DNA of 64,000 bases, taken from assembly GCF_002742445.1 (NCBI RefSeq), contig NZ_NJNQ01000001.1, positions 291,969 to 355,968 on the forward strand, written 5' to 3'. Positions 28,395 through 50,774 of the stretch are shown here, one piece after another. The notes beneath the pieces are model-generated. The model worked only from the letters and a program-made list of their open reading frames with translations. It ran no database searches and was not told where the DNA came from. The translations under genes and the position numbers were made by a program. Each line of letters opens with the position of its first letter. Within the stretch, counting starts at the first letter, position 1. Source of the stretch: Bifidobacterium sp. N4G05 (lineage in GTDB: Bacteria > Actinomycetota > Actinomycetes > Actinomycetales > Bifidobacteriaceae).

Positions 28395-28946
28395 ATGAGC
28401 ATTCACGTAGTGGTGATGGGCGTTGCAGGATGTGGCAAATCCACCGTCGCAGAAGCTATCCACGAACGACTCGGATACGTGTACGCGGAAGGCGACGACT
28501 TCCACCCGCAAGCGAATATCGACAAAATGTCAGCCGGCATTCCACTCACCGATGAGGACCGCTGGCCATGGCTGAACGTCATCAACTCCTGGATGGTGGC
28601 ACGCGAGGCGCTCGATGAAAACACTGTGGTGTCCAGCTCCGCGTTGAAGCGCAGCTACCGCGAGGTGCTCGCCAAAGACGTGCCCACATTCTTCATTCAT
28701 CTCAACGGCAGCCACGAGCTCATTCAGCAGAGGCTCAGCGAACGCAAGGGACATTTCATGCCACCCGCGCTACTGCCAAGCCAGTTCGCCATTCTTGAGC
28801 CGCTCGTCTCCGAAGAGAACGGCGTGGAAATTTCCATCGAAGGCAGCGTCGACGAAATGGTCGACCGTGCCATCGAAGCGCTGAACGCCTATGTGGCAAC
28901 CGTGGCCGCAACCGCGGCAGCCCAAACCGCAACCCAAGCCTCCTAA
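28395..28946 (+). CDS. gntK: Gluconokinase
   Basis: Phosphorylates D-gluconate to 6-phosphogluconate with ATP. The P-loop is GVAGCGKST (residues 9-17), followed by YAEGDDFHPQANIDKMSAGIPLTDEDRWPWL, the gluconate-site signature of the GntK family, and ALKRSYREVL. The 183 residues include an Ala/Thr-rich C-terminal tail (AATAAAQTATQAS) beyond the usual end. AAGGAGAG lies four bases before the ATG. It is the first gene of a gluconate cluster with gntP and gnd, separated from gntP by a three-copy 51-bp repeat array. Confidence 0.96.
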   Translation: MSIHVVVMGVAGCGKSTVAEAIHERLGYVYAEGDDFHPQANIDKMSAGIPLTDEDRWPWLNVINSWMVAREALDENTVVSSSALKRSYREVLAKDVPTFFIHLNGSHELIQQRLSERKGHFMPPALLPSQFAILEPLVSEENGVEISIEGSVDEMVDRAIEALNAYVATVAATAAAQTATQAS

Positions 28947-28970
28947 TCCACCATCCACCGGTCCAAATGT

Positions 28971-29094
28971 GTCCGATTCTCCAGAATTGGACAACTACAC
29001 ACCCAAAACTGGTACATGTTTGTCCGATTCTGCAGAAACGGACAAACAGAACCCAAAAACAGCAGCACAACTGTCCGATTCTGCAGAATCGGAC
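28971..29094. repeat. 51-bp palindromic repeat array A (three copies, gntK-gntP gap)
   Basis: A 22-base element with half-site GTCCGATTCTG occupies 28971-28992, 29022-29043 and 29073-29094. The step is exactly 51 bases. The third copy is a perfect palindrome; the first two have two or one changed bases in the right arm. The 29-base intervals share ACCCAAAA words. Because 51 is 17 codons, open frames run through the array, but they carry no family signal. Confidence 0.88.
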
Positions 29095-29132
29095 AAATCC
29101 GGCACACCAAACCCATGAATCGAGGAGGATTC

Positions 29133-30461
29133 ATGAACCTCATTGCAGCGGCGATCATCGGCATCGCCATCATCGTTCTACTTATCGCGGTATGCAAAGT
29201 GCATCCGTTCCTTTCCCTGCTTGCCGGCTCGTTCGCGATGGCCGTGTGCGCGGGAGTGGAGTACGGCAAGGCGTTCGACAGCTTCACCTCTGGCGTCGGT
29301 TCCACGATTTCCAACGTCGGCCTGCTCATCGCATTCGGCTCGATCATCGGCACAATCCTGTTCAAGTCGGGCGGTGCCGACACCATCGTCGACACCATCA
29401 TGGCCAAAACGCCGTTGCAACGTCTGCCGTGGGCCATGGCCCTGATCGCGTTCATCGTCGGCATTCCCATGTTCTTCGAAGTCGGCGTGGTCATTCTCAT
29501 TCCGGTGGTGCTCTTTGCCGCTCGCCGCGCCAAAGCTCCGGTGATCCTGCTGGGCATTCCAGCCCTCGCAGGCCTTTCCACCCTGCACGCGTTCGTGCCG
29601 CCGCACCCCGGCCCGCTCACCGCCATCGGCGCTCTGAATGCGAACCTCGGCATCACCCTGGCGCTCGGCCTGCTCGTAGCCGTTCCAACCGTGATCATCT
29701 CCGGCCCGCTCTTCGGCAAACTCGCCGCCAAGTGGGTGCCGATCGCCGCCCCCGAAAACAAGGCTGAGGCCGAAGCTCCGAAATCCGCGGAAAACCGCCC
29801 ATCCTTCGCTTCCGCAATCGCCGTCATCCTGCTGCCGGTCGTACTCATGCTCGCCTCTTCCATAGTGGATCTGACCGGTCAGAGCGAAACCGCGTGGGGT
29901 CGTGCACTCGCTTTCATCGGCACTCCGTTGACCGCGCTGCTCATCACCACGATTTTCGCGATGGTCGTGCTCGGTTACATGCAGAAATTCACCCGCGACG
30001 CGGTCAACGGCATGGTCGGCCAATCCTTCAGCTCGGTCGCCGGCATTATTCTGATCGTCGCCGCCGGCGGCGGCTTCAAGCAGACGCTCGTCGATTCCGG
30101 CATTGGCGACGTGATCGCTAATTCGATCACCGAATCCGCCATGAATCCGCTGATCGCAGGCTGGCTGGTCGCCGTGCTCATCCGTCTCGCCACCGGCTCC
30201 GCAACCGTGGCCACCGTCACCGCATCCGGCATCATGGTGCCGCTCGCCACCGGCATGAGCCCAACGCATCTGGCTCTGCTGGTGCTCGCCATCGGCGCAG
30301 GATCCGTGTTCTTCTCGCACCTGAATGATGCAGGATTCTGGCTGGTCAAGGAATACTTCGGTATGTCGGTCGGTCAGACATTGAAGACCTGGTCGCTGAT
30401 GGAAACGATTCTGTCGGTCACCGGCTTGGGTTGCGTCATGCTGCTTTCGCTGGTGCTTTGA
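29133..30461 (+). CDS. gntP: Gluconate permease, GntP family
   Basis: A 442-residue integral membrane protein with about 12-14 hydrophobic segments. It starts MNLIAAAIIGIAIIVLLIAVCKVHPFLSLLAGSF and has the GntP motifs PMFFEVGVVILIP, HAFVPPHPGP, ATGSATVATVTASGIM and SHLNDAGFWLVKEYFG. It imports gluconate by proton symport, supplying gntK. The start at 29133 has GAGGAGG four bases upstream; the frame to 29016 runs back through the repeat array and is rejected. Short loops rich in Ala/Glu/Lys (NKAEAEAPKSAENRPS) connect the halves. Confidence 0.95.
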   Translation: MNLIAAAIIGIAIIVLLIAVCKVHPFLSLLAGSFAMAVCAGVEYGKAFDSFTSGVGSTISNVGLLIAFGSIIGTILFKSGGADTIVDTIMAKTPLQRLPWAMALIAFIVGIPMFFEVGVVILIPVVLFAARRAKAPVILLGIPALAGLSTLHAFVPPHPGPLTAIGALNANLGITLALGLLVAVPTVIISGPLFGKLAAKWVPIAAPENKAEAEAPKSAENRPSFASAIAVILLPVVLMLASSIVDLTGQSETAWGRALAFIGTPLTALLITTIFAMVVLGYMQKFTRDAVNGMVGQSFSSVAGIILIVAAGGGFKQTLVDSGIGDVIANSITESAMNPLIAGWLVAVLIRLATGSATVATVTASGIMVPLATGMSPTHLALLVLAIGAGSVFFSHLNDAGFWLVKEYFGMSVGQTLKTWSLMETILSVTGLGCVMLLSLVL

Positions 30462-30684: not shown

Positions 30685-31578
30685 ATGCAGCTGGCAATGA
30701 TCGGCTTGGGCCGAATGGGCGGAAATATGGCAAAGCGCATCGCTGCGGCCGGACACGAAGTAGTCGGATACGACCGCTCCCCCGAATCGGACCGCACTGT
30801 GGCAAGCCTTGAGGAAATGGTGGCCGCGCTCGCCGCGCCGCGCATCGTATGGGTAATGGTGCCCGCAGGCGAGGCGACCGACAGCACTATCAACGAACTG
30901 GCGGAACTGTTGGAACCTGGCGACATGATTATCGATGGTGGCAATTCCCGCTACACCGATGACGCTCGCCACGCGGCTGAACTTGAGCCGAAGGGCATTC
31001 ACTTCATGGATTGCGGTGTTTCCGGCGGCGTATGGGGCATCGACCGTGGGTATGCGCTTATGGTGGGCGGCAGCGAAGAGGATTTCGAACGCACCCGACC
31101 GATTTTCGAAGCGCTCAAGCCTGAGGGCGATTCCGGACTGGCGCTCGCAGGCCCGGTCGGCGGCGGCCATTTCGCCAAAATGGTGCACAACGGCATTGAA
31201 TACGGCATGATGCAGGCGTTCGGCGAAGGCTTCGCCACTATGGTGAAGTCCGACCTCATCAAGGATCCCGCTGCCGTGATGACTTCATGGCGAGACGGTT
31301 CCGTGGTACAGTCCTGGCTGCTGGATCTGCTGGCGATCGCATTCAAGTCCGATCCGACGCTGGAATCCATGCCGCCGGTGGCCAACGAGTCCGGCGAGGC
31401 GAAGTGGATGATCGAGGCGGCGCTCGAACTGGGCGTGCCGACCCCCGCCACCGCGGCCGCACTTTACGCGCGGCAGACTTCCCGCGGCGGCGCGGATGAC
31501 ATTCTGCGCGTTGTTTCCACCATGCGCGCCCAGTTCGGCGGCCACGTCACCAAGATCGACGAAGTCGCCACCCACTGA
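30685..31578 (+). CDS. gnd: 6-phosphogluconate dehydrogenase, decarboxylating (short form)
   Basis: Converts 6-phosphogluconate to ribulose 5-phosphate and CO2 with reduction of NAD(P). The dinucleotide site is GLGRMGGNM (residues 7-15), followed by DGGNSRY, DCGVSGGVWGIDRGYALMVGG and the catalytic GGGHFAKMVHNGIEYG (lysine and histidine-asparagine). At 297 residues it belongs to the short, single-lobe class found with gluconate genes, often NAD-preferring; the cofactor cannot be decided here. It completes a path gluconate, 6-phosphogluconate, ribulose 5-phosphate with gntP and gntK. AGAAAGAAG precedes the ATG. Confidence 0.95.
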   Translation: MQLAMIGLGRMGGNMAKRIAAAGHEVVGYDRSPESDRTVASLEEMVAALAAPRIVWVMVPAGEATDSTINELAELLEPGDMIIDGGNSRYTDDARHAAELEPKGIHFMDCGVSGGVWGIDRGYALMVGGSEEDFERTRPIFEALKPEGDSGLALAGPVGGGHFAKMVHNGIEYGMMQAFGEGFATMVKSDLIKDPAAVMTSWRDGSVVQSWLLDLLAIAFKSDPTLESMPPVANESGEAKWMIEAALELGVPTPATAAALYARQTSRGGADDILRVVSTMRAQFGGHVTKIDEVATH

Positions 31579-31591
31579 GAGTGCTTTGAAT

Positions 31592-31715
31592 GTCCGATTC
31601 TGCAGAAACGGACAAGCAGAATCCAAAAACAGCAGCCCAACTGTCCGATTCACCAGAATCGGACATCCAAACACCCAAAACCAGCCCATGAGTGTCCGAT
31701 TCTGCAGAAACGGAC
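31592..31715. repeat. 51-bp palindromic repeat array B (three copies, after gnd)
   Basis: Copies of the same 22-base element lie at 31592-31613, 31643-31664 and 31694-31715, again exactly 51 bases apart. The first interval (31614-31642) closely matches the second interval of array A, so the two arrays derive from one unit. Array B begins 14 bases after the gnd stop. Confidence 0.88.
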
Positions 31716-31742
31716 ACTCCACACAGCTTAAGAACGCCTATT

Positions 31743-31888
31743 TCGCTTATACATGGCAGACGCTCTCGGCGAAACAGCACTTCGAGGGTACGATTTGGAG
31801 GTTTTAGCCAACCGAACTGCCATATATAAGCGAGATAGCTCCGAACAGGGGCGTGTATCTGCCATATATAAGGCAGACACACGCCCCT
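31743..31888. repeat. Inverted repeats with TGCCATATATAAG words, hairpin before the aminotransferase 3' end
   Basis: TCGCTTATACATGGCA (31743-31758) is a 15/16 inverted match of TGCCATATATAAGCGA (31818-31833). A third copy, TGCCATATATAAGGCA (31860-31875), sits inside a long stem whose outer arms are AGGGGCGTGT (31847-31856) and ACACGCCCCT (31879-31888), with inner arms CTGCC and GGCAG. There is no T run. It may end transcription of the convergent gnd and aminotransferase genes or be a mobile repeat. Confidence 0.6.
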
Positions 31889-49595: not shown

Positions 49596-50774
49596 CTACA
49601 GTGCGGCTTTAATGTCTTGCGCCAAACGGGCGTTCCACATGGCACCCGTAGCGCTCATCACCGCGTTTGCACCAGCCTCGCGGTACGCCTTGTAATCTTC
49701 CGGACGAATCACACCGCCCACGCCAACGATCGCAAAATCAAGACCCAGCTTCTCGCGAATCGCATTCAGGCGGCCAACCATATCGAGACCTGCACCACGA
49801 ATCGCATTGCCACATACGCCCGAACGGTCACGCCCCGCGCCTGGCAATGCCTGATTGCCGTTCGCATCCACCAGCTTCGCGGAGATTGTGTTAATGGTGG
49901 AGAAACCCTGCACCGCGCCATGGCCGGCGGTTTCCTTCACCATGATTTCCAGATCGGCATCATTCGGAATGTATGCGAGCTTCACGATCAGCGGACGATC
50001 GCCGATTTCGTTCTTCACCGCTTCCGTAATCTCGCCGACCAAATGCGGATCGTGGCACAACAGACGATTATGTCCCTCATTCGGGCAGCTGGTGTTCATT
50101 TCCATCAGGCCAGCGCCAGTTTCGGCAACCAAATGCGCGGTGGTGACATGATCGGCGATATACGCTTCACGATCCATGCCCTCCACGCGGGAGCCTTGGA
50201 AGCTCGGCACCAGCAGCTGGCCGTCACCGGCTGCGGCGATTGCCTTCTGCATGTCCGGCTGCCATTCGTCGGGATCACGGGAGGGAACGCCGAAACTGTT
50301 GGAAATCGAAATCGGAAGCTCATAACGGGTATCGGCAAGCACACCCTCGTCAAGTTCGACACTGCCCGGAACCAGCGAACCATCGGCATTCCGCGGATGC
50401 ACGGCCAGCACGTTCGGGAACGCATTGCAGCCCCATGCGCGGGAACGAACCGTCTTGTATACCGCCAGATCGAAGCCCATACGGAAAGCGGCCGTGGTGA
50501 AACGCTCATTCAGCAGCGGACCAGCTGGAATACCGAACGGCAGATTCACACGAAAACCAAGGAATTCCTGCGCTTGAGCGGCCTGAATGGTCTGAACGCC
50601 CTGAACCTCACTGGAGGAATCGGACGCAACCTCAGCAACAACAGACGTGACCGATCCCGCAGAATCGGACGCATCAGCCCGCAACACTTCGGCAAACGCG
50701 CCGAACGGCCCTTGCAAATAGTTGTCTTCATACGTGCGATTGACATCATAAAACGGCGCAAAACCCTGGCTCAT
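49596..50774 (-). CDS. Dihydroorotate dehydrogenase-like flavoprotein
   Basis: A 392-residue TIM-barrel FMN enzyme. LPFGIPAGPLLNERFTTAAFRMG, VYKTVRSR, SFGVPS, EMNTSCPNEGHN (catalytic segment), LIVKLAY, GFSTINTIS and GVGGVIRPEDYKAYREAGANAV follow class 1/2 PyrD order. An N-terminal Ser/Asp/Val-rich insert (about residues 33-66, ADASDSAGSVTSVVAEVASDSSSEV) is unusual; its DNA contains words of both repeat families. It has no pyrimidine neighbours in this window. GGAGAG precedes the ATG. Confidence 0.82.
   Translation of the reverse strand: MSQGFAPFYDVNRTYEDNYLQGPFGAFAEVLRADASDSAGSVTSVVAEVASDSSSEVQGVQTIQAAQAQEFLGFRVNLPFGIPAGPLLNERFTTAAFRMGFDLAVYKTVRSRAWGCNAFPNVLAVHPRNADGSLVPGSVELDEGVLADTRYELPISISNSFGVPSRDPDEWQPDMQKAIAAAGDGQLLVPSFQGSRVEGMDREAYIADHVTTAHLVAETGAGLMEMNTSCPNEGHNRLLCHDPHLVGEITEAVKNEIGDRPLIVKLAYIPNDADLEIMVKETAGHGAVQGFSTINTISAKLVDANGNQALPGAGRDRSGVCGNAIRGAGLDMVGRLNAIREKLGLDFAIVGVGGVIRPEDYKAYREAGANAVMSATGAMWNARLAQDIKAAL

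Follow-up and report, generated by a model that had tools for sequence, protein, structure and literature searches.

What are the three short palindromes that follow one another at a step of exactly 51 bp between the gluconate genes gntK and gntP of Bifidobacterium sp. N4G05? The locus was picked out by a reading of the letters alone (the sequence-only reading), which offered a protein-binding array, an mRNA processing site or a mobile repeat family as answers. The window, by which we mean the whole 64,000-nucleotide stretch analysed, is C4:291969-355968 of the N4G05 genome (G000; 2.07 Mb in 12 contigs), whose nearest relatives, judged by purA, belong to the B. adolescentis group. The observation was confirmed and proved bigger than first noted, as the three palindromes make up just one of dozens of related mini-arrays. 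We give slightly better than even chances to the explanation that these are phased, bent arrays of sites for a putative dimeric, sequence-specific DNA-binding protein.

The consensus element is a 24-bp palindrome, TGTCCGATTC-NNNN-GAATCGGACA, with TGTCCGATTC as its half-site. It had been described as 22 bp long, which is too short, but the exact 51-bp step before gntP stands, and the reported 29 bases between 22-mers are correct and equal 27 bases between 24-mers. The three copies are not strictly the same element, since the first differs from the other two:

28970..28993, palindrome unit 1 of the gntK-gntP array, TGTCCGATTCTCCAGAATTGGACA, two mismatches to the consensus
28994..29020, + strand, spacer 1, 27 bp, with the A-tract CCCAAAAC about mid-spacer
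29021..29044, palindrome unit 2, one mismatch
29045..29071, + strand, spacer 2, 27 bp, sharing 24 of 27 bases with spacer 1 of the gnd array (below)
29072..29095, palindrome unit 3, a perfect match to the consensus

Far from being absent elsewhere in the genome, the palindrome was found in 68 copies in N4G05 (up to three mismatches), where a reversed control pattern gave none; dinucleotide-shuffled versions of the window also gave no match at the same stringency. The copies form arrays of two to five units, chiefly on contigs C9 and C11. Spacing was measured on 345 distinct palindromes from this genome, B. dentium (we take genome G028 to be this species) and other public Bifidobacterium contigs. 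Of 229 close neighbour pairs, 218 lie 51 bp apart, and the others 50 (6 pairs), 52 (4) or 49 bp (1), so the spacing of the other occurrences is anything but random. The step is also 51 bp in 81 of 88 non-coding intergenic pairs.

The family was found in one genus only. In a search of about 85,000 species genomes, a set that leaves out records near the window, a two-unit pattern matched in Bifidobacterium only (moukalabense, ruminantium, kashiwanohense, merycicum, erythrocebi and pongonis). A relaxed two-unit pattern was present in 22 of 112 Bifidobacterium genomes and in none of 77 genomes from 15 sister genera of the family, with controls at zero. The carriers fall into motif groups with TGTCCGATTC and CGTACTTTTC. 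When palindrome pairs were sought de novo around purA, the species G073, which does not have the main motif, turned out to carry CGTACTTTTCGCGCGAAAAGTACG at a 51-bp step beside purA; this variant also occurs in G024 and G032. Main and variant motifs have the core GTNCNNTTC-N4-GAANNGNAC in common, and differ at the palindrome centre, which is GG, CC or GC in the main group (CG in 0 of about 250) and CG in the variant group. The motif drifts across species and the 51-bp step does not change, which is what would be expected of a co-evolving protein. Another Bifidobacterium species, G018, has a different palindrome, AATTATTCTCCNNGGAGAATTATT, of which three copies follow one another at 52-bp intervals close to purA (C12:210008-210135; L132 7009-7136) and about ten exist in the genome.

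Changes in one half-site of the palindrome are not compensated in the other. Position 7 deviates from the consensus in the left half-site of 36 of the 345 palindromes and in the right half-site of 73, and in none in both, with 7.6 doubles expected (P ~1e-4; P values here and below are approximate because the sequences are related). Selection on total site strength would produce such a lack of double changes. Intergenic spacers also have a pattern of their own, in which pyrimidine-purine (YR) steps at 3-4 and 24-25 flank an A-tract at 13-15. These features recur about every 10 bp, or one helical turn, and the TT/AA of the palindrome falls in the same register. A wedge model with hand-entered curvature parameters predicts that the arrays are the more curved, with an end-to-end ratio of 0.916 for 24 arrays, compared with 0.954 for shuffled spacers and 0.970 for flanks. 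The fixed step of 51 bp (5 × 10.2) and this modelled curvature suggest that dimers may sit on one face of curved DNA.

Comparison of orthologous arrays showed that the palindromes change more slowly than what lies between them. In intergenic arrays, spacers are 35-58% identical and palindromes 72-84% in three of the four species compared; palindromes are more conserved than spacers in every comparison and more than flanks in nearly all. Array positions are kept at 13-15 of 17-19 mapped loci across species, and units have been gained or lost between species in whole 51-bp steps. The gntK-gntP array of B. kashiwanohense (G020, treated as strain JCM 15439) likewise has three units at a 51-bp step with strongly diverged spacers between flanking proteins that are 96-99% identical. 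As to insertion with a target-site duplication or defined ends, sequences aligned with array-free species had diverged too far for ends to be placed. Spacers resemble each other most, well beyond a shuffled null, in neighbouring arrays 1-6 kb apart; 24/27 identity is seen for 29020 versus 31590 in the window and also for 12265 versus 18162 in B. dentium.

In B. dentium and N4G05 the arrays are concentrated on one side of the replication origin, taken from dnaA (G028:C1:466; G000:C9:113143, minus strand). Of the 28 array loci of B. dentium, 26 are found 10-391 kb to the right of dnaA (4.2 expected, P ~1e-19), and there is none in the 75 kb to its left. On C9 of N4G05 the arrays lie 34-112 kb away on the side towards which dnaA is transcribed, and the 27 kb of this contig examined on the other side has none. 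The counterpart of the window's gnt locus is at about 275-277 kb in B. kashiwanohense and, in B. dentium, at about 374 kb. In G006, the purA block and its arrays are on the opposite side of dnaA relative to other species, yet near it, which suggests an inversion about the origin.

Gene context was assessed with gene calls from a simple coding-score script, by which the 70 multi-unit arrays of five species comprise 42 intergenic and 28 intragenic ones. The intergenic ones favour convergent gene pairs (16/42 versus 66/349, P = 0.008) and not promoters. Genes that neighbour arrays (purA, CrcB, a ClC channel, a P-type ATPase, an FtsX permease) share no common pathway. Among the host genes of intragenic arrays, named by reading the sequence and not by family search, are those for an FtsX-like permease, a P-type ATPase, an ABC exporter, a sortase and CrcB. 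All 69 intragenic palindromes use a single frame, encoding SDS[A/G/P]ESD (45 of 45 in a separate count). The serine codons are constant, indicating constraint on the DNA as well as the protein. Two related small helix-turn-helix proteins (G000:C11:59308-59769 and 65882-66343) are encoded beside arrays and sortase/pilus-like genes; their HTH_Tnp_2 match is weak and below cut-off. An AbiEi-like protein (by reading; no Pfam hit) at C9:41542, flanked by arrays in two species, was rejected as a candidate: three further array-bearing species do not have it in this region.

Within the window, the gene names gntK and gntP given by the sequence-only reading hold up against NCBIfam; a second array and a degenerate pair had been overlooked:

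28395..28946, + strand, gntK, gluconokinase (NCBIfam TIGR01313), upstream of the array
29133..30461, + strand, gntP, gluconate:H+ symporter (NCBIfam TIGR00791), downstream of the array
30685..31578, + strand, gnd-type 6-phosphogluconate dehydrogenase (NCBIfam NF007161), 5' of the second array
31591..31716, second array of three units (31591, 31642 and 31693; 51-bp step), directly 3' of the gnd stop codon
16603..16677, degenerate two-unit array (16603 and 16654; 51-bp step) between divergently called genes
50648..50671, lone weak intragenic palindrome of doubtful membership

Past the gnd array, 31746-31876 holds a second, AT-rich repeat, CTGCCATATATAAG, found at 31817 and, 42 bp on, at 31859, and in inverted form at 31746 and 31863 (0.15 matches expected).

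The explanation that we prefer would work as follows. One dimer would bind each 24-bp palindrome through the half-sites TGTCCGATTC, and, as 51 bp makes five helical turns of 10.2 bp, successive dimers would come to lie on the same face of the helix. Flexible YR steps and the A-tract, in phase within each spacer, would bend the DNA in a smooth curve along the array, and arrays of two to five units across the origin-proximal right arm may allow the putative protein to fold, bridge or mark that domain. Genes would tolerate arrays because a 51-bp step, at 17 codons, keeps the frame and one of the frames encodes a hydrophilic linker, SDSAESD. The sequence, spacing, position, reading frame and conservation of the arrays and the lack of covariation are observed; we infer protein binding, cooperativity and an architectural rather than regulatory role, and prefer such a role in the origin-proximal right arm to the main rival, a locally spreading repeat that was perhaps later co-opted.

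That rival holds that the spacing reflects descent and not function, the 51-bp unit of a selfish or mobile palindromic repeat being copied locally and its number altered by recombination between palindromes. The mobile family of the sequence-only reading is in this respect partly right, as both local copying (the closest spacer pairs, at 24/27, sit in neighbouring arrays) and differences between species by whole units are seen, and in-frame intragenic copies recall Rickettsia palindromic elements (RPEs) (PMC10969869). However, intergenic palindromes are retained despite spacer divergence, array positions are conserved across species, and no known mobiliser co-occurs: the Y1 transposase of repetitive extragenic palindromic sequences (REP; the transposase is termed RAYT) is absent from N4G05 and present in just 4 of 22 carriers, and N4G05 and B. 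dentium are without a serine recombinase. We consider a mobile origin unlikely, though it is the strongest of the rivals. An identity as REP/RAYT elements was rejected on the distribution of PF01797 just given and on the 28 of 70 multi-unit arrays that are intragenic, not extragenic. Serine resolvase sites were rejected as well, since PF00239 is absent from G000, G006, G028 and G030; the sequence TGTCYG is one that we take to resemble resolvase half-sites. Operators of a broad transcription regulator with gnt as one target would account for palindromic, dimer-type sites and for two arrays flanking gnt genes in the window, but the neighbour genes have no pathway in common, convergent pairs are favoured over promoters and many arrays lie deep in genes, all of which makes this improbable. 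A gnt-specific operator was rejected on the unrelated neighbour genes; the feature is not specific to gntP, and most arrays are unconnected with gnt genes.

RNA hairpins acting in mRNA processing, stability or termination are a still poorer candidate. The gntK-gntP intergenic RNA does fold with a stability far above that of shuffles (z = -7), but folding is a property of any palindrome, and changes at position 7 disrupt the stem in more than 100 of 345 copies with none compensatory. No terminator-like site and no Rfam family was found. The processing site suggested for the gntK-gntP mRNA is disfavoured on the same grounds, as the half-sites do not covary like an RNA stem and most arrays have no link to gnt, which leaves the protein-binding array as the best fit of the three initial options. 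A published assignment had to be considered too: Briner et al. (2015) tabulated as 'Undetermined' CRISPR, without cas, 8 repeats of TGTCCGATTCTCCAGAATCGGACA for B. dentium and 16 of ATGTCCGATTCTGCAGAATCGGACA for B. ruminantium (PMC4521832). This is the only paper in the relevant literature in which we found the exact main-motif sequences, and the variant motif was found in none. We see practically no chance that these are cas-less CRISPR arrays, because there are dozens of arrays of two to five units, many of them intragenic and in frame, and the spacers share a positional motif; moreover, Cas1 is missing in 6 of 22 carriers (e.g., G020 and G030), and in N4G05 it is on C6, with arrays listed on C4, C5, C9 and C11.

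Several points weigh against the phased-array explanation. In G020 the intergenic palindromes are no more conserved than the flanks (0.717 versus 0.750), and in one close relative, G060, the intergenic spacers are conserved (0.82), indicating that shared descent explains part of the regularity. Unit copies within a few kb mean that local duplication adds to spread and clustering. The arrays of motif-variant species do not look origin-confined, and the wedge model behind the predicted curvature used hand-entered parameters. Finally, no cognate protein emerged among the families checked, as ParB, serine recombinase and RAYT do not fit. A site for a ParB paralog was rejected because, across 30 genomes, the arrays do not go together with any additional ParB_N protein. 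Canonical parS, TGTTTCACGTGAAACA, was excluded as well: the palindrome differs from it in sequence, and in B. dentium canonical parS is separate, left of dnaA. The ParB_N match of chromosomal ParB itself (G000:C9:119682-120035) falls into two pieces with about 20 codons between them in the majority of the Bifidobacterium genomes searched, and is in one piece in G011, G029 and G104.

The fullest version of the proposal, which we put forward tentatively and hold to be less likely than not, is a lineage-specific chromosome-organising system of Bifidobacterium, in which a putative protein on 51-bp-phased arrays wraps or bridges one origin-proximal arm, co-evolves with a drifting motif and forces an SDSAESD linker on host proteins. 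If correct, common human gut bifidobacteria have an undescribed DNA-protein array system in one chromosomal domain, with sites that invade coding sequence in a single frame, and they would offer a genetically testable case of nucleoid organisation by domain other than through ParB, MatP or Noc. The result further corrects a published CRISPR call, which concerns one of the three systems attributed to B. dentium in 2015.

Among known systems, F-plasmid sopC, with twelve 43-bp repeats and ten 16-bp inverted repeats (PMC6238139), is similar in having fixed-period tandem repeats, each with a dimer-bound palindrome, and chromosomal parS in lying near the origin; here the palindrome is 24 bp, the step 51 bp, the spacers diverged and the loci numbered in dozens over about 400 kb. 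CRISPR arrays also have short repeats with regular and mostly dissimilar spacers, whereas the Bifidobacterium arrays are palindromic, small, numerous, partly intragenic and independent of cas. REP elements and bacterial interspersed mosaic elements with RAYT are likewise dispersed palindromes, often intergenic and clustered, but N4G05 has no RAYT, and the fixed 51-bp phase, the many intragenic copies and the restriction to one chromosomal domain set its arrays apart. RPEs share the presence of palindromic elements in frame within genes (PMC10969869). They are single elements of about 150 bp, in contrast to phased arrays that are mostly non-coding. The sites of Noc (NBS) and MatP (matS) are many dispersed short palindromes, each single, that are limited to a chromosomal domain. 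The resemblance to these, judged by site pattern alone, lies in domain-restricted palindromes, which in Bifidobacterium are built into phased arrays.
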